From Pseudonocardia sp. (GTDB lineage: Bacteria > Actinomycetota > Actinomycetes > Mycobacteriales > Pseudonocardiaceae): a stretch of DNA of 64,000 nt. The notes beneath the pieces were generated by a model that made no database searches, was not told the origin of the DNA, and worked only from the letters and a program-made list of their open reading frames with translations. Where the stretch lies: the NCBI RefSeq assembly GCF_029263155.1, contig NZ_JAJCYB010000088.1, positions 1-64,000 on the forward strand, read 5' to 3'. Shown here piece by piece: positions 10,937 through 37,437 of the stretch. The translations under genes were made by a program, and so were the position numbers. Each line of letters begins with the position of its first letter. Position 1 is the first letter of the stretch.

Positions 10937-10985
10937 CCCTGCCAGATCCCCGCGCCCGACCGGGCCCAAACCTCCGGAAGGCGAC

Positions 10986-14658: not shown

Positions 14659-14684
14659 GTACCCCCGCTGCGGTAGCTCACACC
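14659..14684 (-). promoter_or_regulatory. Candidate SigF/SigB-type promoter of the DUF2945 gene
   Basis: On the minus strand GGTGTG (14684-14679), a 14-base spacer and GGGTAC (14664-14659) match the GGNTN-N14-16-GGGTAY pattern of actinobacterial SigB/SigF promoters. Transcription would begin within a few bases of the GTG at 14649, giving an almost leaderless message. The -35 element overlaps the stop codon of the upstream PucR-type gene. Confidence 0.45.
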
Positions 14685-16222
14685 GGCGTCGGCCGGTCCC
14701 CGGGATCCTCACGAGGCGCTCCGTGCGGCATCGACTGGGCGTAGCAGGCGAGGTAGAGGGCGAGGAACTGGTTCGGGTCGTCGAGGTCGATGCCGAGCAC
14801 GTCGAGCACCTTGGTGATCCGGTACGCGACGGTGTTGCGGTGCAGGTAGAGCTGCGCGGCGGTACGCCCGACCGACCGGTTGGTCTCCAGGTACACGCGC
14901 AGCGTCGTGCCGTACTCACGTCGTTTCGCCGGGCCGAGCGTGCTCAACGGCGCCAGCAGGTCGTCGATGCTGTGGCGCACCGAGCTCGACGAGTACCACT
15001 CGACCAGCAGCCTGCTCAGTCCGGGAGCGTCGAACGCCACGGGCTCGCCGATGGCGCCGCGCAGCCGTGCGCTCTGCAGCGCGGACGCCGCCTCGGCCCG
15101 GGAGGCCCGCAGCCCGGCCAGCCCCTCGTGCGCGCCGCCGATGCCGCACAGCACCTGCATGCCGGGGAACGTCGCGGCGGCGCGGTCGAGCACCGCCTGC
15201 ACCGACGAGCGCAGCCGCCGCAGCCCGGCCGGGCCGTCGGCGTGGGTGCGGGTGCGCAGCAGCAGGACGCCACCGGCCCGCGGCGCCATCGCCCAGGACC
15301 CGTCCTGCCGGGCGGCTGCCTGCGCGGCGACCCGGCTCATCGTCTGTGCGTAGTGGTACGCGGTGACCGGGTCGTCGTCGGCCACGGCCAGCACGTTCGC
15401 GAACTCCACGTCGACCACCTCGTTCCAGTTCTCGACGTGGATGCCCAGCTGCGCGGCCCGGCGCAGCAGCGGCCCGCTGTTCTCGGTGGCCGCGTCGAGC
15501 AGCTGGTTGAGCAGCTCGCCCGAGGACAGCAGCGACAGCTGTTCGGCGCGGTCGGTCTCGACGGCGCGCCGGGTCATGGCCCCCGCGAGCCGCCACATGG
15601 CGAGCTGGGCCAGCGAGTCCTCCGCCACGACGGTCGGTGTCCGCTGCAGCCAGGGACCGTCGCGGTCGGTCAGGACGGCCGGGATGCCGTCGCGGCTGCC
15701 GTCGCGGGGGCCCAGCGTCAGCCCGAAGAGCTCGGCCGCGCCCGAGCGGACCAGCAGGCCCGTGCCGTCGACGTCCTGGCTCTCCAGCCGGTCGACCGCC
15801 CGGCACACGCCCACTGCGCGCTCCAGCAGCATCGGCAGCCGCGTGTCGAGCATGCGGACGGTCATGGCCAGCACCGAGGTGACGTCGGTGGGGCGGGTCA
15901 GCCGGACCAGCGGCAGGTCCTCGCGGCGGGCCAGTGCCAGCGCGCTGAGCGAGGGTGGCGGTGCGTCGGACTGCAGGACCAGTCCGGCCACGCTGCTCAG
16001 CCGCCGCAGTGCGACGTCGAGCCGGTAGCCCTGTGCGTCCCGCGAGGCGGCCCGGGTCAGGACCACCAGCGCGTGCGCAGGGCAGTCGTCGAGGTCTCGC
16101 AGGTTCTCGGCGAGCCAACCCGCGCGGACCTCCCGCTCGGGTGATCCGCAGACGAGCTCGGTCAGGCCGGGAGCGCCGCGCTCCAGCTCGGCGAGCACGT
16201 CCGCGACGGTCAGGCGGTCCAT
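14678..16222 (-). CDS. PucR/CdaR family transcriptional regulator
   Basis: A 514-residue regulator. The N-terminal part (LTVADVLAELERG, then an allantoin/purine-catabolism PucR-like domain) precedes a GGDEF-like middle region. A C-terminal PucR helix-turn-helix follows (YLETNRSVGRTAAQLYLHRNTVAYRITKVLDVLGIDLDDP). PucR-type proteins often control purine, hydantoin or amide catabolism. It is divergent from the LLM/hydantoinase/Mo-hydroxylase operon across 124 bases, so control of that operon is the simplest inference. TTGAAC (16261-16266) followed by TAGTTC at 16283-16288 in this gap is a weak candidate promoter for the operon. Confidence 0.9.
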   Translation of the reverse strand: MDRLTVADVLAELERGAPGLTELVCGSPEREVRAGWLAENLRDLDDCPAHALVVLTRAASRDAQGYRLDVALRRLSSVAGLVLQSDAPPPSLSALALARREDLPLVRLTRPTDVTSVLAMTVRMLDTRLPMLLERAVGVCRAVDRLESQDVDGTGLLVRSGAAELFGLTLGPRDGSRDGIPAVLTDRDGPWLQRTPTVVAEDSLAQLAMWRLAGAMTRRAVETDRAEQLSLLSSGELLNQLLDAATENSGPLLRRAAQLGIHVENWNEVVDVEFANVLAVADDDPVTAYHYAQTMSRVAAQAAARQDGSWAMAPRAGGVLLLRTRTHADGPAGLRRLRSSVQAVLDRAAATFPGMQVLCGIGGAHEGLAGLRASRAEAASALQSARLRGAIGEPVAFDAPGLSRLLVEWYSSSSVRHSIDDLLAPLSTLGPAKRREYGTTLRVYLETNRSVGRTAAQLYLHRNTVAYRITKVLDVLGIDLDDPNQFLALYLACYAQSMPHGAPREDPGDRPTPV

Positions 16223-16346: not shown

Positions 16347-17333
16347 GTGAAGCTCGGGATCCTGCTGCTGTCCACCACCCCGCCGGAGCGCCTGGCCGAG
16401 CTGGCCGCCCTGTGCGAGGAGCTCGGCTTCGACGAGGTCTGGCTGGCCGAGGACTACTTCTTCTACGGCGGCTTCACCGCCGCGGCGAGCGTGCTCGCCG
16501 CGACCTCGCACGTCCGCGTCGGGCTCGGCATCATGTCGTGCGTGGCCCGCCACCCCGCCGCGGCCGCCATGGAGATCGCCTCGCTCGACCGCGCCTTCCC
16601 GGGCCGCTTCCTGCCCGGCGTCGGTCACGGTGTGCCGGCGTGGGTGCGCCAGATGGGTCTGACCCCGAAGTCGCCGATGCGGGCGCTCACGGAGGCCGTC
16701 ACCGGTATCCGCACGGCGTTGACCAGCCACGAGCCGTTCACCGTCGAGGGCGAGTACTTCACCTTCCGCGACGTCGTGCTGTTCCACCCGCCGGCCACCG
16801 AGGTGCCGCTCTATCTCGGGGTGATCGGGGCGAAGGGCTGCGAGCTGGCCGGGCGGATCGCCGACGGCAACGTGCTGTCCGTGCTGGCGCCGACCGAGTA
16901 CGTCAGCTGGGCGCGGTCGCTCGGCGAGAAGGGCATGCGCGACGCCGGTCGCAGCGGCACCTTCGCCCTGCCCACCTACGTGCTGACGTCGGTCGACCCG
17001 GACCGCGACAGGGCCAGGGCCGCGGTGCGCGAGTCGCTCGCGTTCTACCTGCAGGCCGTCGGCCCGACACCGCTCACCGGCTCCATCGGGATCAACGACA
17101 CGGTGTCGGAGCTGATCGACGCCGGTGGCTACCAGGCGCTGCTCGACGGGATGCCGGAGGACTGGGTCGACGTCCTCGCCGTCTCCGGTACACCCGACGA
17201 GGCCGCGGACCGGATCCGGGCGTACTGGGCGGCCGGAGCCGACAGCGTCATCCTCTCGCCCCAGCCCCCGGACGGGACCGAGGCCCAGCTGCGCCTGATC
17301 GCGGCCGAGGTGCTCCCGAGGCTGGGCCGGTGA
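16347..17333 (+). CDS. LLM class flavin-dependent oxidoreductase
   Basis: A 328-residue luciferase-like (LLM) enzyme using reduced FMN or F420. It opens with KLGILLLSTTPPERLAELAALCEELGFDEVWLAED and has the barrel pattern HVRVGLGIMSCVARHPAA and the C-terminal GTPDEAADRIRAYWAAGADSVILSPQ. GTG 16347 is chosen because AAGGGG lies 6 bases upstream. It is the first gene of an 11-gene operon; its stop overlaps the next start (GTGA). In this context it may oxygenate or oxidise a ring intermediate before or after the hydantoinase step; the substrate is unknown. Confidence 0.9.
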   Translation: MKLGILLLSTTPPERLAELAALCEELGFDEVWLAEDYFFYGGFTAAASVLAATSHVRVGLGIMSCVARHPAAAAMEIASLDRAFPGRFLPGVGHGVPAWVRQMGLTPKSPMRALTEAVTGIRTALTSHEPFTVEGEYFTFRDVVLFHPPATEVPLYLGVIGAKGCELAGRIADGNVLSVLAPTEYVSWARSLGEKGMRDAGRSGTFALPTYVLTSVDPDRDRARAAVRESLAFYLQAVGPTPLTGSIGINDTVSELIDAGGYQALLDGMPEDWVDVLAVSGTPDEAADRIRAYWAAGADSVILSPQPPDGTEAQLRLIAAEVLPRLGR

Positions 17334-18418
17334 CGGCCCGGATCGATCTGGACAACCTGCCCGCGCTGTCGCTGGGCTGCACGGTGTTCGCCGGCGGCGG
17401 GGGTGGCGACCCGCGGATCGGCGAGCTGATGGCGATGGTCGCGATCCGCGCGCTGGGGCCGGTCGACGTGCGCCCGATCGACGCCTTCGACGACGACGAC
17501 CTCGTCATGCCGTGCGGCATGATCGGGGCCCCCACGGTCATGGTGGAGAAGATCCCCAACGGTGCCGAGGGCCGAGTCATCCGGGAGAGCTACGAGCGCC
17601 ACTTCGGGCGTCCGGTGGCCGCGGTGATGCCGTTCGAGATGGGCGGGATCAACGGGGTGCTGCCGGTGGCCTGGGCGGCCTACGCGGACCTGCCGCTGCT
17701 GGACGGCGACTTCATGGGCCGCGCGTTCCCGGAGCTGCAGATGCTGACCCCGCACCTGTACGGGATGCCCGGCTCGCCCGCGGTGATCACCGACGAGCGC
17801 CTGCAGACGATCGTGTTCACGACCCGCGACAACGTGTGGCTGGAGAAGCTCGTCCGCAACAGCGTCGCGGCCCTGGGCGGGTCGGCGTGCGGCGGGCTGT
17901 ACCCGATGACCGTCGGACAGGCCCGCCGCCCGGCGATCCCGGGCACGGTGACCCGCGCGATCCGGATGGGGGAGGCGATCCTGCGCAGCACGGACGACCC
18001 GCTCGCCGCGATCGCCGAGGTGGCCCCGCTGCTGCGGCTGGGGCAGGGCAAGGTGATCGACATCGAGCGGCGCACGGCGGGCGGGTTCGTGCGCGGTTCG
18101 GCGCTGGTCGAAGGCCTGGGCGAGGACAAGGGGCGGCTGTTCCGGCTGGAGTTCCAGAACGAGAACCTCGTGGTGATCGAGGACGGCGAGCCGCTCGCCA
18201 CCGTCCCGGACATCATCACGCTGCTCGACATCCACACCGGTCACGGGATCGTCACCGAGATGATCCGCTACGGCCAGCGTGTGGAGATCGTGGCGTTCCC
18301 GGCCCCGGAGGTGTGGACCTCCGCCGAGGGACTGCTCGCGGTCGGGCCCCGCGCCTTCGGCTACGACTTCGACTTCGTGCCGGTGGCCGACCGCGTCTCC
18401 GGAGGTGCCCGTGCGTGA
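17330..18418 (+). CDS. DUF917 family protein
   Basis: A 362-residue DUF917 protein (S-methyl thiohydantoin desulfurase family). Recognisable segments are the glycine stretch FAGGGGGDP near residue 25, MPCGMIGAPTVMVEKIP, AVMPFEMGGINGVLPVAWAA and the C-terminal GHGIVTEMIRYGQRVEIVAFPAPEVW. Members are usually encoded next to HyuA-type hydantoinase/oxoprolinase genes, as here. Few have been tested biochemically, so the reaction is inferred only as processing of a hydantoin-like or lactam ring. Translation is coupled on both sides (GTGA overlap upstream, 8-base overlap downstream). Confidence 0.88.
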   Translation: MTARIDLDNLPALSLGCTVFAGGGGGDPRIGELMAMVAIRALGPVDVRPIDAFDDDDLVMPCGMIGAPTVMVEKIPNGAEGRVIRESYERHFGRPVAAVMPFEMGGINGVLPVAWAAYADLPLLDGDFMGRAFPELQMLTPHLYGMPGSPAVITDERLQTIVFTTRDNVWLEKLVRNSVAALGGSACGGLYPMTVGQARRPAIPGTVTRAIRMGEAILRSTDDPLAAIAEVAPLLRLGQGKVIDIERRTAGGFVRGSALVEGLGEDKGRLFRLEFQNENLVVIEDGEPLATVPDIITLLDIHTGHGIVTEMIRYGQRVEIVAFPAPEVWTSAEGLLAVGPRAFGYDFDFVPVADRVSGGARA

Positions 18419-19994
18419 GGGCGAGGGCGGCCTGCGCGTCGGCATCGACGTGGGTGGCACCAACACCGACGCGGTCGTCGTCGACGCCGGCGACCGGCTG
18501 CTGGCGAAGGTCAAGCACCCCACCACGTCCGACGTCACCACCGGGATCCTCTCGGCGCTGGACCGGGTGCTCGGCCAGCTCGACGGGGCATCGGGCCGGA
18601 TCACCCACGTCATGCTGGGGACGACGCACGCCACCAACGCCATCCTGGAACGCCGCCACCTCAACCGGGTCGCCGCCGTGCGGCTGGGCGGGCCCGCGAC
18701 CCACGCGATCCCGCCGCTGTCGAGCTGGCCGCCCGACCTGCGCGGCGCCATCTCCTGCGGCGAGATCATCGTCGACGGCGGCGTGGAGATGACCGGCGAG
18801 CCGATCGTCGCGCTCGACGAGGACGCGGTGCGTCGCTTCCTCGACGGCGTGCGCGAGCAGGCCGAGTGCGTCGCGGTGTCCGGGGTCTTCTCGCCGGTCC
18901 TGTCCGACCAGGAGTTCCGCGTCGAGGAGCTGGTGCGGGAGGTGCTCGGCGACGACGTCCCGGTCTCGCTGAGCCACGAGATCGGCTCGCTCGGGCTGCT
19001 CGAACGGGAGAACGCCTGCGTGCTCAACGCGGCGCTGGTGGCGGTGGCGGAGCGGATCACCTCCGGGCTGAGCAACGCCATGCGCGCCCACGGCATCGCC
19101 GCCGAGGCCTACATCGCGCAGAACGACGGCACGCTGATGAGCCTGGACTACGTCCGGCGCTACCCGATCCTCACCATCGGCAGCGGGCCGACCAACAGCA
19201 TGCGGGGTGCTAGCTACCTGACCGGCGCCGCGGACGCGCTGGTCGTCGACGTCGGGGGCACCTCCACCGACATCGGCATCCTCTCCTCGGGGTTCCCGCG
19301 CGAGTCCTCCACGGCCGTCGAGATCGGTGGCGTGCGGACCAACTTCCGGATGCCCGACCTGGTGTCGCTGGCGCTCGGCGGCGGCACGATCCTGCGCGCG
19401 TCGCCCGGCGGGGTGGCGCTGGGTCCCGGCAGCGTCGGCTACCGCCTGACCTCGGAGGCGCTGGTGTTCGGCGGGTCGGTCCCGACGCTCACCGACGCGA
19501 TCGTGGCGTCGGGTCGCAGCCGCGGGATCGGCGAGTCGGGCCGGACCGACGGGTACACCGACCTGCTGCTCGCCGGACTCGCCGCGTGTGACCTGCGCAT
19601 CGAGGAGGCCGTCGACCGCGTCAAGACCTCGGGCCGGGAGCTGCCGCTGATCGCCGTCGGTGGCGGCAGCGGGCTGATCCCCGAGACCCTCGCCGGGGTG
19701 GCGGGGGTGCACCGGCCGGACAACCACGACGTGGCCAACGCGATCGGCGCGGCGATCGCGTCGGTGTCCGGTGAGGTCGACCGGGTGTTCAGCTACGGCA
19801 AGGACGGCCGGGACGACGCGCTGGCCGAGGCGGTCCGGCTGGCCCGCGACGAGGCGATCCGCGCCGGCGCGGACCCGATGCACGTGGAGATCGTGGAGAT
19901 CGACGAGGTGCCGCTGGCCTACCTCACCGATCCGGTCGCGCGGGTCCGGGTCAAGGCCGCGGGTCCGCTCAGAACGCACCCTGTGGAGGCGTGA
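18411..19994 (+). CDS. Hydantoinase/oxoprolinase family protein (HyuA-like)
   Basis: A 527-residue ATP-dependent hydantoinase A-type subunit. The N-terminal ASKHA-like motif is GIDVGGTNTDAVVVD near residue 10; the second domain has GTTHATNAILER and VVDVGGTSTDIGIL near residue 280. Family members hydrolyse hydantoins or 5-oxoproline with ATP. The usual HyuB partner is absent, and DUF917 sits in its place. GTG 18411 lies after GGAGG at 18401 and inside the end of the DUF917 gene. It is followed directly by a molybdenum hydroxylase trio. Confidence 0.9.
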   Translation: MREGEGGLRVGIDVGGTNTDAVVVDAGDRLLAKVKHPTTSDVTTGILSALDRVLGQLDGASGRITHVMLGTTHATNAILERRHLNRVAAVRLGGPATHAIPPLSSWPPDLRGAISCGEIIVDGGVEMTGEPIVALDEDAVRRFLDGVREQAECVAVSGVFSPVLSDQEFRVEELVREVLGDDVPVSLSHEIGSLGLLERENACVLNAALVAVAERITSGLSNAMRAHGIAAEAYIAQNDGTLMSLDYVRRYPILTIGSGPTNSMRGASYLTGAADALVVDVGGTSTDIGILSSGFPRESSTAVEIGGVRTNFRMPDLVSLALGGGTILRASPGGVALGPGSVGYRLTSEALVFGGSVPTLTDAIVASGRSRGIGESGRTDGYTDLLLAGLAACDLRIEEAVDRVKTSGRELPLIAVGGGSGLIPETLAGVAGVHRPDNHDVANAIGAAIASVSGEVDRVFSYGKDGRDDALAEAVRLARDEAIRAGADPMHVEIVEIDEVPLAYLTDPVARVRVKAAGPLRTHPVEA

Positions 19995-20845
19995 TGGAGT
20001 TGCATGCTGTCGACACGGTCGACGCCGCCCTCGACGTGCTGGCCGCGCGCGGCGACGGTTGCCAGGTGCTCGCGGGTGGCACCGACGTGATGATCCAGCT
20101 GGCCCGCGGGGAGATCACCCCGGCCGTGCTGCTGCACGTGGAGCGGGTCGCGGGGCTGCGGGGCGTCGAGGCGAACGGCTCGGTGCACCTCGGCGCGCTG
20201 GTGACGCACCGCACGCTGGCGACCGGTGTGCTCGGCGACCGGTTCCGCGCGGTGGCCGAGTCCGCCGCCACCGTCGGCGGCCGGCAGACGCAGGTGGTCG
20301 GCACGATCGGCGGCAACGTCTGCAACGCCTCGCCCGCGGCCGACACGCTTCCCGCGCTGCTCGTCCACGACGCCACCGTGACGCTGCGCAGCCGGGCGGC
20401 CGGTCGCACGGTGCCGCTGCAGGAGTTCCTCGTCGGCCGCCGCACGACCACCCGCGCCGCCGACGAGCTGCTCACCGGGGTCTCGCTCGGCGATCCGGGG
20501 AAGGGCAGCGGCGATGTCTACCTGAAGGTGGGTCGGCGCGGGGCCATGGAGGTGGCCATCGTCGGCCTGGCGATGCGGTTGTCCTTCGACGCGGCCGGGG
20601 CGGTCACCGGGGCGAGGGTCGCGCTGGCCGCGGTCGGGCCGCGCCCGGCGCGCTCCACCGGGGCCGAGGAGGCGCTGGTGGGCGGCCCCCTGGAGGCGGA
20701 CCGCCTGGATGCGGCCGCGGCGGCCGCGTGCCGGGACATCACCCCCGTCGACGACCTGCGCGGCTCGGCCGACTACCGGCGCCGCGTGGTGCCGGGCCTG
20801 CTGCGCCGGGCCGCCGGGATCTGCGCACGACGAGCTGGGAGGTGA
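19994..20845 (+). CDS. Molybdenum hydroxylase FAD subunit (trio 1)
   Basis: A 283-residue CoxM/XdhB-type FAD-binding subunit. FAD motifs are VLAGGTDVMIQL near residue 35 and TIGGNVCNASPAADTLPALL near 105; the C-terminal CO_deh_flav_C domain ends in YRRRVVPGLLRRA. It passes electrons from the 2Fe-2S subunit to an acceptor. The ATG at 19994 is preferred over GTG 19991 because GGAGG ends 4 bases before it. It overlaps the hydantoinase stop by one base and precedes the iron-sulfur gene by 5 bases. The gene order is FAD, FeS, Mo. Confidence 0.92.
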   Translation: MELHAVDTVDAALDVLAARGDGCQVLAGGTDVMIQLARGEITPAVLLHVERVAGLRGVEANGSVHLGALVTHRTLATGVLGDRFRAVAESAATVGGRQTQVVGTIGGNVCNASPAADTLPALLVHDATVTLRSRAAGRTVPLQEFLVGRRTTTRAADELLTGVSLGDPGKGSGDVYLKVGRRGAMEVAIVGLAMRLSFDAAGAVTGARVALAAVGPRPARSTGAEEALVGGPLEADRLDAAAAAACRDITPVDDLRGSADYRRRVVPGLLRRAAGICARRAGR

Positions 20846-20850
20846 GCGGG

Positions 20851-21318
20851 ATGGAGTTGTCGTTCGTGGTGAACGGGACGCCGCGGTCGGTGGACGTCGA
20901 CGCCGCGGAGACGCTGCTGGGGGTGCTGCGGGACCGCCTGCGGCTCACCGGGACGAAGGAGGGTTGCAACGAGGGCGAGTGCGGCGCGTGCACCGTCCTG
21001 GTCGACGGCCTGCCGGTCGACTCCTGCATCTACGCCGCGGGAGCGGCGGCCGGGCGCGGGGTCGAGACCGTCGAGGGCCTGACCCGCGACGAGCTGGGTG
21101 CCGCGCTGCAGGCCGCCCTCGTGGCCGCGGGCGGGGTCCAGTGCGGGTTCTGCACACCCGGGTTCGTGACCACCCTGGTGGCCGTGCTGCGCGAGGACGC
21201 CGCACCCTCCGAGGACGCGGTCCGCGAGGCACTGGCCGGCAACATCTGCCGCTGCACGGGCTACAGCCAGATCGTCGACGCCGTCGCCGCGACGGTGGCC
21301 GGGAGGAACGGGCGATGA
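20851..21318 (+). CDS. Molybdenum hydroxylase 2Fe-2S subunit (trio 1)
   Basis: A 155-residue CoxS-type protein with two 2Fe-2S clusters. The plant-ferredoxin-like cluster is in CNEGECGACTVLVDG and the helical-domain cluster in CGFCTPG plus ICRCTGY. It links the molybdenum centre to FAD. The ATG at 20851 is supported by GGGAGGTGA just upstream. Its stop overlaps the start of the large subunit (ATGA at 21315-21318). Confidence 0.95.
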   Translation: MELSFVVNGTPRSVDVDAAETLLGVLRDRLRLTGTKEGCNEGECGACTVLVDGLPVDSCIYAAGAAAGRGVETVEGLTRDELGAALQAALVAAGGVQCGFCTPGFVTTLVAVLREDAAPSEDAVREALAGNICRCTGYSQIVDAVAATVAGRNGR

Positions 21319-23597
21319 CCGTGATCGGTGAGCGCGTGGCCCGCACCGACGGGCAGGCGAAGGTCAGCGGCGAGGCCGTCTACGGCGTCGACCACGAGGA
21401 ACCGGGGATGATCTGGGGCGCACTGCTGCGCTCGCCGGTCAGCTCCGGGCTGGTCACCCGGCTGGACACCGCGCCCGCACTGGCGATGCCCGGGGTGCAC
21501 GCCGTGGTCACCGCGGCCGACGCACCGGACGCCTACGCGGGCTGGGTGCTGCGCGACCAGCGGCTGTTCGCATCCGACCGCGTGCGCTTCGAGGGCCAGC
21601 CCGTCGCGGCGGTGGCCGCGGACTCGCTGGCACAGGCCAGGGCGGCCGCGGCCGCGATCGGGCTGGACATCGAGCCGCTGCCGGCCGTGGTCGACCTGCG
21701 GCAGGCGACGAGCCCGGACGCGCCGCTGGTGCACCCCGACTGGGCGAGCTACGTCCCGACGGCCGGCCCGGACTTCCCGCGCCACGGCAACGTCGCCGCC
21801 GAGTGCGTGGCCGACCCGCCCGGCGTCGACGAGGCGTTCGCCCGCGCCCACCGCGTGATCACCGACGAGTACGTGGCCCAGCGCCAGTACCAGGCCTACA
21901 TCGAGCCCAAGAGCGCCGTCGGCATCTACCGGGGCGGGCGCTACACCGTGCACACCGCGCACCAGTTCCCGTTCAACGTGCGCGACCGGGTGGCGCAGTT
22001 CCTCGACGTGCGCCCGTCGGCGGTGCGGGTGGTCGGGCACACCATCGGCGGCGGCTTCGGCGCCAAGCTCGACGCGAGCCTGGAGCCCTACGCCGCGCTG
22101 CTGTCCCGCGCGGCGGGCGGGCTCGCGGTCAAGCTCGTCAACACCCGCACCGAGGACCTGCTGAGCTGCCCGAGCCGGGAGGGCGCGATCACCCGGATCC
22201 GCTCCGCGGTGGACGCCGACGGCACGGTGCTGGCCCGCGAGCTGGAGGTGGTCGCCGACAACGGTGCCCACAGCGGCGAGATGCCGTGGCTGGCCGCGAT
22301 CGCGCTGCACTGCGCGCGGGGGGTGTACCGGGGTGGCCCGACCCGGGTGATCTCCCGGCTGGTGTACACCAACACCACCCCGACGGGCGCGTTCCGCGGC
22401 GTCAACGGCACCTACCTGTACCACGCCGTCGAACGACACATGGACCACATCGCGGCCGAGCTGGGGCTCGACCGCCGCGAGTACCGGCTGCGGCTGCTGT
22501 TCGCCGACGGTGAGGAGCTGCTCAACGGCCAGGTGCTGCACGACGCCGGCATCCTGCGCCGTGGCTTCGACGCGCTGGAGGCCCGCGCCCCGTGGGCCGA
22601 GCTGCAGGCCGGGAAGCGACCGTACCGGGGCATCGGGATCGCCGCGGCGTGGTGGCTGACCAACCCCGGGCCCGGATCTGCGGTGGTCTCGCTGCGCGAG
22701 GACGGCACGGCCGCCGTGGTGACCGCGGCCAACGACAACGGCTCGGGCGCGGTGGCCCTGGGCGTCACGCAGATCGTCGCCGAGCGCCTGGGCATCCCGC
22801 CCGCCGACGTGTTCGTCACGCTGCCCGACACCGACGTCTCCGGCTACGACGGCGGCTCGCAGGGCAGCCGCACCACCCGCGCCGTCGGCGGGGCCGCGCT
22901 GATCGCGGCCGACGAGGTCGTCGACAAGCTCAAGGACGTGGCGTCCGCGCTGCTGGAGGCGGCACCGGAGGATCTCGAGGTCGCCGACGCGACGGTGCGG
23001 GTGAAGGGCGCGCCGGGCACCAGCGTGCCGATCGCGCTGGTGGCGGCGACGGCACTGAACACCGTGGGCCCGATCCAGGGCACCGGCTCGTTCGTCACCC
23101 CGTTCCCCGACTTCAACCCCGGCTGCGCGAGCGGGCTGCTGTTCCCCTCGTTCCCCACCCCGACCTACCACGTGCACATCGCGGAGGTCGAGGTCGACCC
23201 GGTGACCGGCACCGTGCGCGTGCTGCGCTACCTGGTGGCACAGGAGGTGGGGCGGATGATCAGCCCGGACGGCACGTACGGCCAGGTGTCGGGCGCGGTC
23301 GCCCAGGGCATCGGCTACGCCCTGCACGAGAGCCTGCGGATCGGCGCGGACGGCCGCTACCGCGAGCGGACCCTGGAGAGCTACCGGCTGCCGCTGGCCT
23401 GCGACGTGCCGCGCGTCGAGTTCGTCGCGCTGGAGCACCCGGACCCGGACGGCCCGTTCGGGGCCAAGGGCGTGGCGGAGGGCCCGGTGCTGCTGCCCGC
23501 CGCGGTGATCGCGAACGCGGTCTGCGACGCGATCGGCAGGCCGCTGGACAACATCCCGATCACGCCGGAGGAGGTCCTCGCTGCGATCCAGAGCTGA
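21315..23597 (+). CDS. Molybdenum hydroxylase large subunit (trio 1)
   Basis: A 760-residue aldehyde-oxidase/xanthine-dehydrogenase-type molybdopterin subunit. It has an N-terminal Ald_Xan_dh_C domain, the cofactor motif GGGFGAKLDASLEPYAALL near residue 240, and DNGSGAVALGVTQIVAERLG. The likely active-site Glu lies in FGAKGVAEGPVLLPAAV near the C-terminus. The active loop reads TPTGAFRG, not the AYRCSFR-type of form I CO dehydrogenase, so it should hydroxylate an N-heterocycle or aldehyde. It ends 33 bases before the second trio. Confidence 0.93.
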   Translation: MTVIGERVARTDGQAKVSGEAVYGVDHEEPGMIWGALLRSPVSSGLVTRLDTAPALAMPGVHAVVTAADAPDAYAGWVLRDQRLFASDRVRFEGQPVAAVAADSLAQARAAAAAIGLDIEPLPAVVDLRQATSPDAPLVHPDWASYVPTAGPDFPRHGNVAAECVADPPGVDEAFARAHRVITDEYVAQRQYQAYIEPKSAVGIYRGGRYTVHTAHQFPFNVRDRVAQFLDVRPSAVRVVGHTIGGGFGAKLDASLEPYAALLSRAAGGLAVKLVNTRTEDLLSCPSREGAITRIRSAVDADGTVLARELEVVADNGAHSGEMPWLAAIALHCARGVYRGGPTRVISRLVYTNTTPTGAFRGVNGTYLYHAVERHMDHIAAELGLDRREYRLRLLFADGEELLNGQVLHDAGILRRGFDALEARAPWAELQAGKRPYRGIGIAAAWWLTNPGPGSAVVSLREDGTAAVVTAANDNGSGAVALGVTQIVAERLGIPPADVFVTLPDTDVSGYDGGSQGSRTTRAVGGAALIAADEVVDKLKDVASALLEAAPEDLEVADATVRVKGAPGTSVPIALVAATALNTVGPIQGTGSFVTPFPDFNPGCASGLLFPSFPTPTYHVHIAEVEVDPVTGTVRVLRYLVAQEVGRMISPDGTYGQVSGAVAQGIGYALHESLRIGADGRYRERTLESYRLPLACDVPRVEFVALEHPDPDGPFGAKGVAEGPVLLPAAVIANAVCDAIGRPLDNIPITPEEVLAAIQS

Positions 23598-23630
23598 CCC
23601 CCTTCCCACCACCGGCAGGAGCAACGCCCC

Positions 23631-26027
23631 ATGACCATCGTTGAACCCCCCGTCCAGACCCGCTACACCGGCACCCCGGTCCGGCGCACCGAGGACCCGC
23701 GGCTGCTTGCCGGCCGAGGGCAGTACGTCGACGACGTCACCGTCCCGAAGATGATCGAGGCCGCGGTGCTGCGCAGCCCGGAGGCGCACGCCCGCATCAT
23801 CAGCATCGACACCAGCGCCGCGCGGGCCCTGCCCGGCGTGTTCGACGTCATCACCGGCGCGGACCTCGTCGCGGTCGCGGGCGAGCAGCCCGTCATCTGG
23901 TTCCCGATCCCCGACCAGCGGATCGCGAAGACCCACGCACTGGCCACCGACCGGGTGCGCTGGGTCGGCCAGGCCGTGGCCGCGGTCGTCGCCGTCGACC
24001 GCTACGTCGCCGAGGACGCCCTCGAGCTGATCGAGGTCGAGTACGAGCCGCTGCCCGTGGTGGCCGACCTCGACGCCGCGCTGGCTCCCGACGCCCCGAC
24101 GCTCTACGACGACTGGCCCGACAACGTCAGCGGCTCGCTCACCTACACCTTCGGGGACCCCGACGCGGCCTTCGCCGCGGCGGACGTGGTGGTGCAGGAG
24201 CGCTTCACCCACGGGCGGGCGTTCGGCTGCCCGCTGGAGCCGCGCGGCGCCATCGTCAACTGGGACGCCTTCTCCGGCACCGTCGATGTGTGGCTGTCCA
24301 CCCAGTCCCCGAACCTGGCCCGGGACCTGCTCTCGGAGGTGCTCGGGGTGCCGGTGCACAAGATCCGCGTCCGGACGCCCCACCTTGGCGGCGGCTTCGG
24401 AAACAAGTTCGACTTCTACGGCGAGGAGGTCATCGCCGCGGTCCTGTCCCGGCGCACCGGCCGCCCGGTGAAGCTGATCGAGGACCGCCGCGACAGCTTC
24501 TTCGCCACCTCCCACTCGCGCGACCAGCGCCTCGACTTCGAGATGGCGCTCAACAACGACGGCACGATCGTCGGCCTGCGCGGGATCTCCTACGGGGTGC
24601 TCGGCGGCGCGCTCGGCACCGTCGGCACCGGCCCGCCCTGGGCGTCGGTGCTCACCTGCATGGGGCCCTACAAGATCCCGAACCTGGACGTGACGGTGAA
24701 GGCCGTCATGACCAACCGCTCGCCCTACGGCTCCTACCGGGGCTGGGGGGTACCCAAGGGCAACATCGTGCACGAGCGGCTGATCGAGATCGCCGCACGC
24801 GAACTCGGGATGGACCGCACGGAGATCCGCCGCAAGAACTTCCCCGCTCCCGAGGAGTTCCCGCACTTCTCCGGCGTCGCGTTCACCTACGACAGCGGCC
24901 GCTACGCCGACTGCCTCGACCTGGCGATGGGCAAGGTCGACGAGCTGGGCTGGCCGCAGCGCCAGGCGCAGGCGCGCGCCGAGGGCAGGTCGGTGGGGAT
25001 CGGCTACTCGTTCCACGTCGAGCCCAGCGCGTACGGGCCGAGCCGCATCCTCAACCTCGTCGGCCTGGCGCACTCCGGCTTCGACGAGGTGACCCTGCGG
25101 ATGGACTCGATCGGCAAGCTCACCGTCTACTCCGGACAGATCAACATGGGCCAGGGCACCCACACCGTCTACGCCCAGCTCGCCGCCGACAGCCTCGGCA
25201 TCCCGATGGACGACGTCGTCGTGGTCACCGGGGACACCGACTCCTGCCCGTACACCGGGTACGGCACCGGCGGCAGCCGGGCCGCGCCCCTGGGCGGCGC
25301 GGCCATCCTCCGGGCGGGGGAGCGGCTGCGCGCGAAGCTGCTCCGGATCGGCGCGCAGCTGCTGGAGGCCTCCCCGGACGACATGGAGATCGTGGACGGG
25401 GTGCTCAGCGTCCGCGGGGCCCCGGGCCGCTCGGTGACCACCCGCGACATCGGCGACGCCGCCTACCGCCGGCTGCTCGACACGCTGCCCGACGAGGAGA
25501 CCCCGACCCTGGAGGAGGTCGACGTCTTCGACCCGCCCAACATGGCCACCTCCTTCGGGTGCACCGCGCTGCTGGTCGAGGTCGACCGCGAGACCGGCAC
25601 GGTCAGCCTGCTGGACTGCCTGGCGGCCCACGACTGCGGCACCGTCATCAACCCGATGCTGGTGGACGGCCAGCTCGCCGGCGGGCTGGCCCAGGCGCTG
25701 GGCGGGGCCCTGCTGGAGGAGCTGGTCTACGACGAGCAGGGCCAGCTGCGCACGGCCAGCTTCATGGACTACCTGCTGCCCACCGCCATGGAGATCCCTC
25801 CGTTCCACTTCTACCACCAGGAGACACCGGCGCCCGACATCCCCGGCGGCATCAAGGGGGTCGGCGAGGCCGGCACGATCGCCGGGGTCTCGCTGGTCGG
25901 CAGCGCCATCGACGACGCCCTGAGCGACCTCGGCGTCACCGTGACCCGGTTCCCGGTCACGCCCCCACGGCTGTTGGACCTGATCCGCACAGCCCGGACC
26001 GCGTCATCCCAGGAGGCGTCGGCATGA
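23631..26027 (+). CDS. Molybdenum hydroxylase large subunit (trio 2)
   Basis: A second molybdopterin-binding large subunit of 798 residues, CoxL-like in layout. Landmarks are GTPVRRTEDPRLLAGRGQYVDD at the start, GGGFGNKFDFYGEEVIAA near 255, INMGQGTHTVYAQLAADSLG, and GIKGVGEAGTIAGVSLVGSA with the catalytic Glu near 750. The active loop is SPYGSYRGWG and lacks the Cys of form I CO dehydrogenase. Its sequence is clearly different from the trio 1 large subunit, so this is a second enzyme, not a recent copy. Its own spacing and RBS (GGCAGGAGC) suggest a fresh start of translation within the operon. Confidence 0.93.
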   Translation: MTIVEPPVQTRYTGTPVRRTEDPRLLAGRGQYVDDVTVPKMIEAAVLRSPEAHARIISIDTSAARALPGVFDVITGADLVAVAGEQPVIWFPIPDQRIAKTHALATDRVRWVGQAVAAVVAVDRYVAEDALELIEVEYEPLPVVADLDAALAPDAPTLYDDWPDNVSGSLTYTFGDPDAAFAAADVVVQERFTHGRAFGCPLEPRGAIVNWDAFSGTVDVWLSTQSPNLARDLLSEVLGVPVHKIRVRTPHLGGGFGNKFDFYGEEVIAAVLSRRTGRPVKLIEDRRDSFFATSHSRDQRLDFEMALNNDGTIVGLRGISYGVLGGALGTVGTGPPWASVLTCMGPYKIPNLDVTVKAVMTNRSPYGSYRGWGVPKGNIVHERLIEIAARELGMDRTEIRRKNFPAPEEFPHFSGVAFTYDSGRYADCLDLAMGKVDELGWPQRQAQARAEGRSVGIGYSFHVEPSAYGPSRILNLVGLAHSGFDEVTLRMDSIGKLTVYSGQINMGQGTHTVYAQLAADSLGIPMDDVVVVTGDTDSCPYTGYGTGGSRAAPLGGAAILRAGERLRAKLLRIGAQLLEASPDDMEIVDGVLSVRGAPGRSVTTRDIGDAAYRRLLDTLPDEETPTLEEVDVFDPPNMATSFGCTALLVEVDRETGTVSLLDCLAAHDCGTVINPMLVDGQLAGGLAQALGGALLEELVYDEQGQLRTASFMDYLLPTAMEIPPFHFYHQETPAPDIPGGIKGVGEAGTIAGVSLVGSAIDDALSDLGVTVTRFPVTPPRLLDLIRTARTASSQEASA

Positions 26028-26896
26028 AGCCACCACCCGTCAAGTACGCCCGGGCCGGTGACGCCGCCGAGGCCGTCGCCCTGCTCACCGAGCACGGCAC
26101 CGACGCCAAGGTGCTCGCCGGTGGCCAGAGCCTCATCCCGCTGATGAGCTTCCGGCTGGCCCGCCCGTCGGTTCTGATCGACATCAACCGGGCCTCCGGC
26201 CTCGACGAGGTCCGGACCGACAACGGCAGCCTGCTGATCGGCGCCATGGCTCGCCAGCGCGACGTCGAGACCAGCGCGGTCGTCGCGGACGCCGTCCCGC
26301 TGCTGCCGCAGGTGCTGCGCCACGTCGGGCACGTCGCCAACCGCAACCGGGGCACGGTCGGGGGCAGCCTGGCCCACGCCGACCCGGCCGCCGAGCTGCC
26401 GGCGCTGGTCACCGCGCTGGGCGGCGAGCTGCTGGTGCAGGGCCCCGGCGGACCCCGTTCGGTGGCCGCGCAGGACTACTTCCTGGGTACGTTCACCACC
26501 GCCATGGACTACGACGAGGTCCTCGTCGGGGTCCGGCTGCCCCGGCTGCCCGCCGGCACCGGCGTGGCCGTCGAGGAGCTGGCCCGCCGGCACGGCGACT
26601 TCGCCATCGTGGCCGCGCTCGCCGCGGTCCACCTCGGTCCCGACGGCACGGTGGACACGGTTCGGCTGGCGGTGAGCGGAGCGGCGTCGGTGCCGGTCCG
26701 GCTGCACGCCGCGGAGGCGGCGCTGACCGGCGCGGCGCCGACGGCCGAGGCGGTCGACGCGGCCGCCGGCACGGTCGCCGCCGCCATCGACCCCACCGAC
26801 GACGTCCACGCGCCGGCCGGGTACCGGCGCGACATGGCCCGGCTGCTCGTGCGGCGGGCCCTCCAGGCAGCGATCCAGCGAAGCGAGGCGGCGTGA
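26024..26896 (+). CDS. Molybdenum hydroxylase FAD subunit (trio 2)
   Basis: A 290-residue CoxM-type FAD subunit. FAD-binding motifs are VLAGGQSLIPLMSFRLARP near residue 30 and NRGTVGGSLAHADPAAELPAL near 105. The start ATG 26024 has AGGAGG upstream and overlaps the stop of the large subunit (ATGA). The order in this trio is Mo, FAD, FeS, unlike trio 1, which argues for independent origins of the two sets. The product would transfer electrons from the iron-sulfur subunit to a quinone or other acceptor. Confidence 0.93.
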   Translation: MKPPPVKYARAGDAAEAVALLTEHGTDAKVLAGGQSLIPLMSFRLARPSVLIDINRASGLDEVRTDNGSLLIGAMARQRDVETSAVVADAVPLLPQVLRHVGHVANRNRGTVGGSLAHADPAAELPALVTALGGELLVQGPGGPRSVAAQDYFLGTFTTAMDYDEVLVGVRLPRLPAGTGVAVEELARRHGDFAIVAALAAVHLGPDGTVDTVRLAVSGAASVPVRLHAAEAALTGAAPTAEAVDAAAGTVAAAIDPTDDVHAPAGYRRDMARLLVRRALQAAIQRSEAA

Positions 26897-27375
26897 TGAG
26901 CGAGGACAGCCAGGCGGTGTCGATGACCATCAACGGTCACGTCTACACCGGCCACTGCGAGCCACGGCTGACGCTGGCGGACTTCATCCGCCACGAGTGC
27001 GGCCTGACCGGCACCCACCTGGGCTGCGAGCACGGGGTGTGCGGCGCCTGCACGATCATCGTGGACGGCCGCAGCACGCGGGCCTGCCTGATGCTCGCCG
27101 TGCAGGCCGACGGGTGCGTCATCACCACCGTCGAGGGGCTCGCGAGCGGCGCGGAGCTCAACCCGCTGCAGGAGGCCTTCTGGAACAACCACGGCCTGCA
27201 GTGCGGGTTCTGCACGCCCGGGATGCTCATGTGCGCCACGGAGTTCCTGGAGGGCAACCCCGACCCCACCGCGCAGGAGGTGCGCGAGTGCATCTCCGGC
27301 AACCTGTGCCGGTGCACCGGATACGACGCCATCGTGCGCTCGGTGCTCGACGCGGCCGCGGAGCTGCGGCGGTGA
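26896..27375 (+). CDS. Molybdenum hydroxylase 2Fe-2S subunit (trio 2)
   Basis: A 159-residue CoxS-type subunit with two 2Fe-2S clusters: CEHGVCGACTIIVDG, CGFCTPGMLMC and LCRCTGY. The ATG 26896 shares one base with the FAD-subunit stop (TGATG); a GTG at 26893 is also possible and would add one residue. Its stop overlaps the GTG of the next gene. It completes the second hydroxylase. Confidence 0.94.
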   Translation: MSEDSQAVSMTINGHVYTGHCEPRLTLADFIRHECGLTGTHLGCEHGVCGACTIIVDGRSTRACLMLAVQADGCVITTVEGLASGAELNPLQEAFWNNHGLQCGFCTPGMLMCATEFLEGNPDPTAQEVRECISGNLCRCTGYDAIVRSVLDAAAELRR

Positions 27376-27686
27376 CCCACCGCGTGTACTTCCTCAGCAC
27401 GCTGCACGAGACGACCGATCCCGCGGCCTACGAGGACTGGATCCGGACCGGCGACTACCCGCCGGCCCGGGCCCACCCGGCGATCGTGAGCTACGACGTC
27501 ACGCGCATCGAGGCGACGCTGGACGGCACCGGCACCCCGTCGATCCAGTACCTGGAGGTGCTGGAGGTCACCGACCTGCAGTCCTACCGGGAGGCGCTGG
27601 CGACGCCGGCGTTCGAGCAGCTCCTCGCGGAGTGGTCGACGTTCGTGGCGTCCGCCGAGGCCGTGCACGGGACGGTGATCGAGTAG
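27372..27686 (+). CDS. REDY-like (HapK-type) alpha-beta barrel protein
   Basis: A 104-residue small dimeric alpha/beta-barrel protein. The pattern DPAAYEDWIRTGDYPPARAHPAIVSYDV and a later YLEVLEVTDLQSYREALATP resemble the REDY/HapK family, whose best known member is tied to pyrrole metabolism. Its role here is unknown; it may be an accessory or ring-cleavage factor. GTG 27372 overlaps the preceding stop (GTGA). It is the last gene of the operon that starts at 16347 and is followed by a strong hairpin. Confidence 0.7.
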   Translation: MTHRVYFLSTLHETTDPAAYEDWIRTGDYPPARAHPAIVSYDVTRIEATLDGTGTPSIQYLEVLEVTDLQSYREALATPAFEQLLAEWSTFVASAEAVHGTVIE

Positions 27687-27726: not shown

Positions 27727-28665
27727 TCAGCCGAGCGTGCACAGGCGACGCAGCATCTCCGCCGCCGCGCTCCCGGTGTCGCCGTCGAGGGCGACGTGCA
27801 CGTCGGGGCCGTGGCCGCCCGGGTCCGGGTGGGCGACCGTGGTGCCCCGGTCCGGGCCGAGATCGCAGCGGACACCGAGCGGCAGGGGCGTCGTGCGCAG
27901 CGTCCCCGGCAGGATCGCCTCGAGCACGGCCAGCGGGTCGTGCAGCGCCACGCTGTCCGTGCCGTGACGCTCGCGGAACGCCGCCCGGTACAGCGCGAGC
28001 ATGCGCGCCAGCGTGGCGCCGCGCGGCCCGCTCGCCGTCAGCTCCTCGACCCAGCCCCCGCCGGCCAGGCAGCGCATGGTGATGTCGAGGGGGACCAGCG
28101 TCACCGGCACGTCGGGCTGGGTCAGGACGCGGTGGGCGGCCTCGGGATCGGCGTAGACGTTGAACTCGGCGCGGCCCTGCCGCGTGTTGCCCCCGCCGAG
28201 GGAGCCGCCCATCGTCACGATGCGGCCGATCCTCGCGGTGAGCTCGGGATGGACCGCCAGCAGCAGCGCCACGTTCGTCAGCGGTCCGATGGTCGCGATC
28301 GTCGCCGGCTCGTCCGCTCCGCGCAGCACGTCGGCCATCAGCTCCACCGCCGAGCGCGGGTCCGGGTCGATCGGGTCCGGGAACTCCGCGGAGCGCTGCC
28401 CGAGCCCGTCGGCCCCGTGCCACTCCGGCGCCCACTCCTCCTGCGGGTAGACCAGCGGGCGGGCCGCGCCGGCGGCCACGGGCACGTCGGGCCGCCCGGC
28501 GAGGGCGAGCACGCGGCGGGCGTTGGCGAACGTGCGGTCCAGCCCGACGTTGCCGAACGGCACGGTCACCGCGCGCAGGTCCACCTCGGGGCTGCGCAGC
28601 GCGAGCACGAGCGCGAGGGCGTCGTCGACGCCCGGGTCGGTGTCGATGATCAGGGGGTGCGGCAT
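27727..28665 (-). CDS. Inosine-uridine-type nucleoside hydrolase
   Basis: A 312-residue nucleoside hydrolase splitting N-ribosyl bonds to give a free base and ribose. The calcium-binding aspartate cluster is IDTDPGVDDALAL at the N-terminus; NVALLL, MGGSL and EFNVYADPEAA follow, and the C-terminal HDPLAV has the second metal/catalytic region. It sits 11 bases downstream of the CoA transferase gene on the same strand, so both share the operator-bearing promoter near 29.8 kb. It would supply ribose to the ribokinase of the same regulon. The base it removes is not known. Confidence 0.93.
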   Translation of the reverse strand: MPHPLIIDTDPGVDDALALVLALRSPEVDLRAVTVPFGNVGLDRTFANARRVLALAGRPDVPVAAGAARPLVYPQEEWAPEWHGADGLGQRSAEFPDPIDPDPRSAVELMADVLRGADEPATIATIGPLTNVALLLAVHPELTARIGRIVTMGGSLGGGNTRQGRAEFNVYADPEAAHRVLTQPDVPVTLVPLDITMRCLAGGGWVEELTASGPRGATLARMLALYRAAFRERHGTDSVALHDPLAVLEAILPGTLRTTPLPLGVRCDLGPDRGTTVAHPDPGGHGPDVHVALDGDTGSAAAEMLRRLCTLG

Positions 28666-28676
28666 GGCGGTCGCCC

Positions 28677-29789
28677 TCACTGCGGCAGTGGTGCGGGTGC
28701 GGTGCGGTAGGTCGGTGGCGTGGCCGAGAGCCCGATCGGGTTGCGCACCAGGTGGACCAGCGACCCGTCCGGCCGCGGCACGCCCACGACCGGCGCGAGG
28801 CCGAGCTCGGTGGCGAGCCGGAAGGCGCCCGCGACGTCGTTGACGACGCCGGCGGGGACCCGCGCGGCGGTGCACGCCGCGGCCCACTCGGCGGCCGGGC
28901 GGGCCGCCAGGCGCTCGGCCAGCAGGCCGCGCAGCGCCGCCCGGTTCGCCACGCGGGCCGGGTTGGTCGCGAAGCGCGGGTCGTCGGCGACGGACTCCTC
29001 GCCCAGCACCGCGCACAGCGCCCGGAACTGGCGGTCGTTGCCCACCGCGAGCACCAGTTCGCCGTCGGCGGCCGGGAGCAGCTCGTAGGGCGCGATGCTC
29101 GGGTGCCGGTTGCCCATCCGGCCCGGTGCGACGCCGCCGGAGGTGTAGGCCGACGCCTGGTTGACCAGTGCGCCGAGCAGCGACGACAGCAGGTCGACCT
29201 CGACCCGCTGGCCCGCACCCGTGGCGGCGCGGTGGCGCAGCGCGGCGAGGATGCCGACCGTCGCGAACAGCCCGGACAGCACGTCCACCACGGCCACGCC
29301 GACCTTCTGCGGCTCGCCGTCCGGCTCCCCGGTGATGTGCATGAGCCCGCCGAGGGCCTGGATCAGCAGGTCGTAGCCGGGCAGGTCGGCCCCTGCGCCA
29401 CGGCCGAACCCGGTGACCGAGCAGTAGACCAGGCCCGGGTTCGCGGCGCGCAGCTCGTCGTACCCGAGCCCGAGCCGCTCCATCACACCCGGCCGGAAGT
29501 TCTCGACGACGACGTCGGCGGTGCGGGCGAGCAGGCGGGCCTCGGCGAGGTCGTCCGCGGCGGTGAGGTCGAGCGCCAGCACGTCCTTGTTGCGGTTGAC
29601 CGACTGGAAGTAGGTGGCGGTGCCGCGGTCGTCGTAGGGCGGCCCCCAGCTGCGGGTGTCGTCCCCGGCGCCGGGACGCTCGATCTTCGTCACCGCGGCG
29701 CCCAGATCGGCCATGAGCATGGTGGCGAACGGGCCGGCCAGCACGCGGGAGAAGTCCAGCACCCGCAGGTCGCCCAGGGCGGAGGGCAT
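28677..29789 (-). CDS. CaiB/BaiF family III CoA transferase
   Basis: A 370-residue class III CoA transferase moving CoA between carboxylic acids. It opens with LGDLRVLDFSRVLAGPFATMLMADLGA and ERPGAGDDTRSWGPP, and has the catalytic-Asp region NRNKDVLALDL and FRPGVMERLGLGYDEL. Length is slightly short (family about 390-400). ATG 29789 lies 5 bases after AGGAAGG. A LacI-type operator (29806-29819) covers the leader. Because a glutaryl-CoA-dehydrogenase-like gene occurs in the same regulon, a dicarboxylate such as glutarate is a reasonable guess for the substrate. Confidence 0.92.
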   Translation of the reverse strand: MPSALGDLRVLDFSRVLAGPFATMLMADLGAAVTKIERPGAGDDTRSWGPPYDDRGTATYFQSVNRNKDVLALDLTAADDLAEARLLARTADVVVENFRPGVMERLGLGYDELRAANPGLVYCSVTGFGRGAGADLPGYDLLIQALGGLMHITGEPDGEPQKVGVAVVDVLSGLFATVGILAALRHRAATGAGQRVEVDLLSSLLGALVNQASAYTSGGVAPGRMGNRHPSIAPYELLPAADGELVLAVGNDRQFRALCAVLGEESVADDPRFATNPARVANRAALRGLLAERLAARPAAEWAAACTAARVPAGVVNDVAGAFRLATELGLAPVVGVPRPDGSLVHLVRNPIGLSATPPTYRTAPAPLPQ

Positions 29790-37355: not shown

Positions 37356-37366
37356 GGCGTGCCACG

Positions 37367-37398
37367 GCCGCCCGCCGCACCCTGGTGCGGCGGGCGGC
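37367..37398 (+). terminator. Intra-operon hairpin after nadV
   Basis: A perfect 14-base-pair stem (GCCGCCCGCCGCAC at 37367-37380, GTGCGGCGGGCGGC at 37385-37398) with a CCTG loop follows the nadV stop by 11 bases. It may be a partial terminator that lowers expression of the HAD and prs genes, or a stabilising 3' end for a nadV message. Confidence 0.6.
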
Positions 37399-37437
37399 GT
37401 CGGACCGGGACCATTCGACGAGGAGCCGTTCTCGATC

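Follow-up and report, generated by a model that had tools for sequence, protein, structure and literature searches.

In the actinomycete Pseudonocardia sp. (assembly GCF_029263155.1), positions 1 to 64,000 of contig NZ_JAJCYB010000088.1, the 64,000-nucleotide stretch that we call the window, hold a tight run of genes at 16347-27686 on the plus strand, where an LLM (luciferase-like, Mer-like) oxidoreductase, a protein of the DUF917 family and an ATP-binding subunit of the HyuA type are followed by two trios of molybdenum (Mo) hydroxylase subunits and a small REDY-like protein. Ten genes emerge from Pfam and NCBIfam scans, from inspection of the start and stop codons and from a gene caller based on codon usage, and the same means yielded no eleventh between those positions; the eleven-gene operon of the first-pass annotation keeps its tight run and its named families, but loses one member. 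The operon and its two neighbours read as follows.

14678..16222, minus strand: PucR-family regulator (HTH_30 + GGDEF_2; PF13556, PF17853), divergent from the operon
16347..17333, plus strand: LLM (luciferase-like, Mer-like) oxidoreductase, 328 residues (aa) (PF00296, 2e-54)
17330..18418, plus strand: DUF917/S-Me-THD-like protein, 362 aa, proposed hydrolytic subunit (PF06032, PF20906)
18411..19994 (alternative start 18405), plus strand: short HyuA, ASKHA-type ATP-binding subunit, 527 aa (PF05378, PF01968)
19994..20845 (alternative start 19991), plus strand: trio 1 FAD subunit (PF00941, PF03450)
20842..21318 (alternative start 20851), plus strand: trio 1 [2Fe-2S] subunit, FeS (PF00111, PF01799)
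21315..23597, plus strand: trio 1 molybdopterin large subunit L1, 760 aa, GAFRG loop, Glu722 (PF01315, PF02738, PF20256)
23631..26027, plus strand: trio 2 molybdopterin large subunit L2, 798 aa, GSYRG loop (PF01315, PF02738, PF20256)
26024..26896, plus strand: trio 2 FAD subunit (PF00941, PF03450)
26896..27375 (alternative start 26893), plus strand: trio 2 [2Fe-2S] subunit, FeS (PF00111, PF01799)
27372..27686, plus strand: REDY-like/HapK protein, 104 aa (PF11639, 2.9e-10)
27727-28665, minus strand: nucleoside hydrolase, convergent, directly downstream of the operon

The gene order is LLM-DUF917-HyuA-FAD-FeS-L1-L2-FAD-FeS-REDY. With the starts listed, eight of the nine junctions are overlaps of 1-8 nucleotides (nt), seven if the FeS gene of trio 1 begins at 20851 as the gene caller would have it, and the sole gap, of 33 nt, separates L1 from L2. 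It had been said that nearly all junctions overlap or nearly touch, that the trios differ in their gene orders (FAD-FeS-L1 against L2-FAD-FeS) and that a REDY-like protein, here recognized by its PF11639 match, ends the operon, and on these points the first reading was right. An alignment of six intergenic stretches between PucR and LLM genes gave short common words and no clear palindrome that would mark an operator of the PucR type.

The same annotation took the two Mo hydroxylases to be unrelated. The trios are indeed two and complete, with FAD_binding_5 and CO_deh_flav_C, Fer2 and Fer2_2, Ald_Xan_dh_C and MoCoBD_1/2 all present, but both belong to the xanthine-oxidase family, where they fall into two separate clades. 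The catalytic glutamate of a Mo-hydroxylase large subunit lies near the C-terminus; the motif is GAKGVAE in L1, where E722 is invariant in all seven L1 rows of our alignment A2, and GIKGVGE in L2. The active loops, GAFRG and GSYRG, differ as claimed from that of CO dehydrogenase (AYRCSFR in the reference 1n5w), and this activity was rejected, both subunits being also below the CO dehydrogenase cut-offs. Neither L1 nor L2 passes any of the NCBIfam equivalog cut-offs listed. The best matches of L1, 4-hydroxybenzoyl-CoA reductase (421 bits for a cut-off of 995) and XdhA (379 bits for the 780 of XdhA_XDHase, where L2 reaches 424), have the same domain plan, but L1 scores far under their thresholds. 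In the same way L2 has the domain plan of the large subunits of quinoline 2-oxidoreductase and CO dehydrogenase, its closest sequences in PDB (the first of these being the best match, with 561 bits), but it sits in a clade of its own and lacks the CO dehydrogenase loop.

The comparison of both large subunits with characterised enzymes, which had been put forward as a check, was carried out in part: in a small, quick tree of 113 of 147 rows (every fourth of L116-L160 kept, L089 and L109 entered twice) with long reference branches, neither groups with any of seven references, namely quinoline oxidoreductase (QorL), two CO dehydrogenases, 6-hydroxypseudooxynicotine dehydrogenase (KdhL), 4-hydroxybenzoyl-CoA reductase and the XdhA and XdhD of E. 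coli. With a support of 99, the clade of L1 comprises 53 rows, two of its proteins appearing twice, and that of L2 has nine rows at a support of 100, with none of the seven in either; nicotinate and caffeine enzymes lie outside this tree, nicotinate dehydrogenase having been compared by phmmer score alone. The genome of the window (G000) has 14 MoCoBD_2 matches, the highest number when set against the 59 other genomes searched, and is therefore rich in Mo hydroxylases.

The HyuA of the operon has the phosphate motifs DVGGTNTD and DVGGTSTD, and its ATP-binding domains PF05378 and PF01968 pass their cut-offs. A Pfam scan found HyuB (PF02538) in none of the ten proteins; a HyuA without HyuB, as the operon had been described, is thus what is there, but it is no anomaly, this being the usual state for a HyuA encoded beside DUF917. 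HyuAs in that position have a median length of 520 aa (58 complete genes, 446-840), against 675 aa for those beside HyuB (33 genes, 674-723), and short and long forms make up the two sides of one branch (FastTree, support 100), a split which is partly built in, since length and the score against the window HyuA decided which short rows were taken. Hydant_A_C was found by Pfam in none of five short HyuAs and in the one long HyuA scanned, and the short proteins match only the first 174-197 of the 291 positions of Hydantoinase_A. The predicted model of the short HyuA (pLDDT 88) aligns over almost its full length with the alpha subunit of acetophenone carboxylase (5l9w_b; Z 28.4, 485 residues) and with the CapA subunit of caprolactamase (Z 27.0, 498 residues).

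The DUF917 protein has both the N and the C domain of a family now named S-Me-THD (PF06032, PF20906), but it obtains 83.9 bits where the NCBIfam model of S-methyl thiohydantoin desulfurase requires 450, and 67.5 bits where that of thiohydantoin desulfurase requires 440. The sole clear PDB match of its predicted model (pLDDT 92) is 2o3i (Z 40.5), an entry whose title states no function, the VIA-align rows below it (Z under 5) being treated as background. Residues conserved over 77 rows of the family include E73, E103, N108, D127, R131, E172, R176, E278 and D294. DUF917 is found in 42 of the 394 genomes of the class, that of the window included, and in 140 plasmid records; among 40 regions taken from these 42 genomes, in cases several per genome, HyuA is present (anywhere in the stretch) in 38, and HyuB in one. 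In five loci (L031, L034, L035, L036, L038) three tandem DUF917 paralogues adjoin one HyuA, an arrangement that may point to hetero-oligomers. A single paper of the open-licence literature was found under PF06032, and its authors, comparing sequences and structures, suggested that DUF917 may act as a hydantoinase (PMC11055893). The cyclodipeptide oxidase gene clusters of that paper likewise have DUF917 near other cyclic-amide enzymes, whereas the part of it drawn on here says nothing of a Mo hydroxylase or of HyuA as a partner of DUF917. The same literature gave nothing on 'thiohydantoin desulfurase', nor on Pseudonocardia with hydantoinase and xanthine dehydrogenase.

What carries our interpretation is the company kept by L1. 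When GTDB genomes were scanned with seven aligned L1 proteins as the query, the best 80 matches were kept and gave 79 loci, a depth at which weaker relatives are missing. We called group A the 36 loci nearest to the window (L1 at about 49% identity or more, the window and a genome of another family, G183, included), and group B a set of 50 loci, mainly of Alphaproteobacteria and with five plasmid records. The two were cut by listing order, so that L122 (Prauserella), with 51% identity, is counted in B while by identity it belongs to A; G183 is not independent of DUF917, because it entered group A via a DUF917 search. For the control we went down a listing of other Mo-hydroxylase large subunits in the class and took the loci of 40 with a start above 9000, excluding the operon of the window and leaving out G055:C11:179678 and G000:C13:19949, too near to loci already taken, and G054:C68:10897; two of the control stretches span only 11-12 kb, and the set is not matched for L1-like enzymes, because L2 is the better query in all 40 loci. 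Antisense open reading frames (ORFs) of GC-rich genes, frequent in the clustering of neighbours, were ignored.

Of the 36 loci of group A, 29 have a gene for HyuA, HyuB or DUF917 (28 if L100 is set aside, a contig of 6.7 kb that carries DUF917 but lacks HyuA); DUF917 is present in 26 and HyuA together with DUF917 in 25. In 26 loci the trio has a HyuA, DUF917 or LLM gene at most 400 bp away on its own strand. PucR matches are present in 13 of these loci, the window included. Of the 50 loci of group B, 37 have HyuB and 24 have PxpBC-like genes, which makes 45 with at least one of the two, and no DUF917 was found in the 50 stretches: beside relatives of L1, HyuAB or a PxpBC-like system replaces HyuA-DUF917. 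When L1 is merged at 80% identity such a system is kept in 19 of 23 clusters for A and 18 of 22 for B. Candidate amide-opening genes are thus far more frequent beside L1 than in the control, where HyuA or HyuAB occurs in 9 of 40 loci. DUF917, LLM and PxpBC were found in none of the 40 control loci at the same threshold, and what the control lacks is the linkage to DUF917 and LLM, plus the PxpBC linkage of group B. Annotated plasmids display HyuA-HyuB-trio in Rhizobium rhododendri and Rhizobium sp. TH2, and HyuA-HyuB-importer-trio-PxpA-aminotransferase in Aureimonas; those of Diaphorobacter and Sulfitobacter have PxpA, biotin carboxylase genes, two carboxyltransferase-type (PxpB/PxpC-like) genes, an importer and the trio. 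A class III aminotransferase is found in 16/50 loci of group B, 3/36 of group A and 1/40 of the control, the enrichment in B being expected where an amino acid is released.

Some further features of these neighbourhoods deserve mention. RidA, considered among the neighbours, is rare (2/50 in group B, 0/36 in group A); homarine catabolism was considered too, and the papers found on it have no such operon in title or abstract. In Streptomyces carpinensis (L107) a further L1-like trio, divergent at 39% identity and with the order L-FAD-FeS, is found at 16854-20544, directly behind another DUF917-HyuA pair. L093, named Poseidoniales, and L094, of Acidimicrobiales, have nearly identical L1 genes, which is probably a binning error of metagenome-assembled genomes (MAGs) and makes the presence of the system in archaea unsure.

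Within the genus, the arrangement is more than a chance one, the gene order of the window being the same in five Pseudonocardia loci (P. acidicola, P. dioxanivorans CB1190, P. asaccharolytica and two MAGs), with large subunits 83-89% identical to those of the window and REDY detected in one of the five (L087). L1 was found at 83-85% identity in three of 24 other Pseudonocardia genomes searched (G405, G409, G412), the position in G409 (C1:6845005) being that of L1 in P. dioxanivorans CB1190, so that the operon is patchy even within its genus. A second L1-type large subunit, at 53-55% identity, exists in the Pseudonocardia genomes G405, G406, G412 and G417. In G183 the gene set, minus REDY, is rearranged into a PucR gene with HyuA-DUF917-trio 1 and, on the opposite strand, L2-FAD-FeS-CoxD-CoxE-DUF917-PucR, together with a CoxG-LLM-XdhC-MoaA group.

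The LLM gene occurs in 31 of 36 group A loci and none of 40 control loci (1e-10), figures that vary with the query, a second count giving 30/36 and 0/40, and the second LLM protein of L093 used as query 22/36 and 2/40. The top NCBIfam match of the window protein is methylenetetrahydromethanopterin reductase, below cut-off, as are all the others among the 25 rows shown, and the enzyme is possibly F420-dependent. REDY occurs in seven of 36 group A loci, the window included, and adjoins an LLM gene in L089, L091, L093 and L107, but not in the window. Near the trio of L1, six loci (L089, L092, L093, L094, L097, L099) have a recurring block LLM-(REDY)-LLM2-M24 peptidase-PALP-(SnoaL), perhaps a longer version of the pathway. 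The M24 peptidase is found in seven, the threonine-synthase-like PALP in six and SnoaL in six of the 36 loci, none of them Pseudonocardia; as clues to the substrate, ectoine hydrolase was considered for the M24 protein (76 bits for a cut-off of 575) and diaminopropionate ammonia-lyase for the PALP protein, which threonine synthase models fit best (222 of 303 bits).

PxpABC and HyuAB are ATP-dependent cyclic-amide hydrolases. Because such candidates for the opening of an amide interchange beside one Mo-hydroxylase clade, which is our main evidence, we propose that trio 1 makes a cyclic amide which HyuA-DUF917 then opens, and we read the ten genes as devoted to the catabolism of a small nitrogen heterocycle, through Mo hydroxylation to a lactam-like ring, activation by HyuA and hydrolysis by DUF917, giving this reading a probability of about 0.5. 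In the order of steps and for the class of substrate that we infer, trio 1 (here also trio 2) would insert a water-derived oxygen at the carbon next to the ring nitrogen, yielding a lactam-like cyclic amide; the LLM enzyme, to judge from its family, may alter the redox state of the ring; the short HyuA would phosphorylate the lactim form of the amide with ATP, as in one of the mechanisms considered for CapA; and DUF917, in place of HyuB and acting with HyuA as one enzyme, would hydrolyse the activated C-N bond to an open-chain amino or ureido acid, PucR presumably controlling expression of the operon. In caprolactamase, activation takes place in CapA and metal-assisted hydrolysis in CapB, and the three mechanisms considered, two of them with a phosphorylated lactim, all pass the activated lactim from CapA to the metal site of CapB (PMC8453981). 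It is by analogy with this pair that the short HyuA may be seen as activating the ring and DUF917 as hydrolysing it. An activated lactim would moreover resemble, on chemical grounds, an S-methyl isothiourea, whose carbon is of the kind expected to be attacked by the named DUF917 relatives.

The operon shares with CapAB and with the ATP-dependent hydantoinase/5-oxoprolinase HyuAB an ATP subunit of the HyuA type, its phosphate motifs and its predicted fold; it differs from them in having no HyuB, a HyuA about 150 aa shorter and without Hydant_A_C, and an adjoining DUF917 instead. Clusters resembling the 5-oxoprolinase PxpABC (Diaphorobacter, Sulfitobacter, others) likewise lie beside relatives of the same Mo hydroxylase, but are made of other proteins, none of which is in the window, with biotin carboxylase genes present and PxpB below its cut-off. 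Short of an even chance, we may go one step further and suggest that short HyuA and DUF917 form an ATP-dependent cyclic-amide hydrolase with an architecture of its own, next to HyuAB and PxpABC, in which HyuA would make an imidoyl phosphate and DUF917 hydrolyse it without the Asp/His metal site of HyuB, used in several bacterial phyla, with the reference-free Mo-hydroxylase clade and LLM, in an undescribed heterocycle pathway.

The place of the second trio is less general. Under strict thresholds, with the two best candidates scored in each genome, L1 is found in two of the 394 class genomes and L2 in the same two; this suggests that trio 2 is part of the pathway in this lineage, although no more than 10 of the 36 group A loci gave a relative of L2 within the stretches examined, several of which are short. 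The first-pass annotation had imagined two successive hydroxylations followed by ATP-driven opening of an N-heterocycle: comparative genomics supports the opening, but not two hydroxylations as a rule, since these fit only the loci with trio 2.

A number of observations weigh against this interpretation. Across the 77 rows of DUF917 no histidine position attains 85% conservation, which means that DUF917 lacks the Asp/His metal tetrad of CapB and would need to act without it; the reactions that NCBIfam names for the family are desulfurations, not ring openings; and in L092, L093, L094, L102, L105 and L106 the genes for DUF917 and HyuA are on different strands. Linkage to HyuA or HyuAB is not rare in itself, being seen near 9 of 40 control loci, and genes of any such candidate system are missing from the stretch in seven of the 36 loci of group A and in five of the 50 of group B; of these group A stretches five are shorter than 13 kb, while L113 and L115 are full 22-kb loci. 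Some of the HyuAB and PxpB systems that we compared might be carboxylases rather than amidases. The HyuA and HyuB of L078 match caprolactamase models best, with 524 and 289 bits for cut-offs of 1000, and acetophenone carboxylase models too; in L077 PxpA passes the cut-off of its model, but the PxpB-like protein has 77 bits for a cut-off of 146 and matches urea carboxylase better, which, with the adjoining biotin carboxylase genes, makes a biotin-dependent carboxylase possible. Biochemical data for any of these proteins were not found in the open-licence literature.

Other explanations must be considered in the light of these facts. The names that Pfam and NCBIfam gave to the family, after S-methyl thiohydantoin desulfurase and thiohydantoin desulfurase, would suit a (methyl)thiohydantoin desulfurase acting in the degradation of a sulfur-bearing heterocycle, the ring of which HyuA would open alone or with a HyuB encoded elsewhere. 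We find this unlikely: the protein, with its 84 and 68 bits, is far from the equivalog cut-offs of 450 and 440, its partner is a HyuA of the kind that lacks Hydant_A_C, and the absence of DUF917 from the 50 stretches of group B implies that desulfuration is not needed by the wider L1 family. A division of labour, where trio 1 with LLM, HyuA and DUF917 would form one pathway and trio 2 would attack another, related N-heteroaromatic under a shared regulator, is possible though doubtful, and compatible with our preferred explanation as regards trio 1. It fits the ten loci of 36 with a relative of L2, the proximity of L2 to quinoline 2-oxidoreductase in PDB, and the layout of G183, whose trio 2 shares the opposite strand with CoxD and CoxE and with a further DUF917 gene and a further PucR gene; it fits poorly with the strict matches of L1 and L2 in the same two of 394 class genomes and with their side-by-side position in five other Pseudonocardia loci.

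Two more proposals have much smaller chances. Ordinary purine oxidation, with both trios as xanthine/hypoxanthine dehydrogenases fed with bases by the neighbouring nucleoside hydrolase (27727-28665), would account for the PucR regulator and for trio 1 FAD and FeS subunits nearest to the XdhB and XdhC models, yet we hold it very improbable, because both large subunits are far below the xanthine dehydrogenase cut-off of NCBIfam and neither groups with E. coli XdhA or XdhD (on long branches). At least as improbable, at the bottom of our scale, is a short HyuA acting as a reactivating or electron-activating ATPase of the ASKHA type (as MutL, or BadF/HgdC-like) with DUF917 as its client enzyme: weak matches to MutL, ROK and BcrAD_BadFG exist and activators of 2-hydroxyacyl-CoA dehydratase align at Z 16-17, but the alpha subunit of acetophenone carboxylase and CapA align more strongly, at Z 27-28 and nearly full length, and Hydant_A_N and Hydantoinase_A pass their cut-offs.

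Other genes of the window may be noted for completeness. The nucleoside hydrolase is accompanied by a CoA-transferase III gene (27727-29789, minus strand), both convergent to the operon, with no membership in it implied. At 7712-11270 (minus strand) what appears to be one molybdopterin oxidoreductase is divided between two adjacent ORFs, the first part with the Fe4S4 domain and the other with Molybdopterin and Molydop_binding, perhaps because the gene is split or carries a frameshift, and at 35880-39128 (plus strand) there is a row of nicotinate phosphoribosyltransferase-like, HAD and PRPP-synthetase-like genes.

The consequences of an ATP-driven ring opening by HyuA and DUF917 would reach beyond Pseudonocardia. 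DUF917 is widespread, yet little described in the literature that we found, and if it replaces HyuB, many genes annotated as 'hydantoinase/oxoprolinase' without HyuB would gain a testable function. A new enzyme for the hydrolysis of stable cyclic amides would then be at hand, and the L1 clade would be a genomic marker for the degradation of heterocycles in several phyla.

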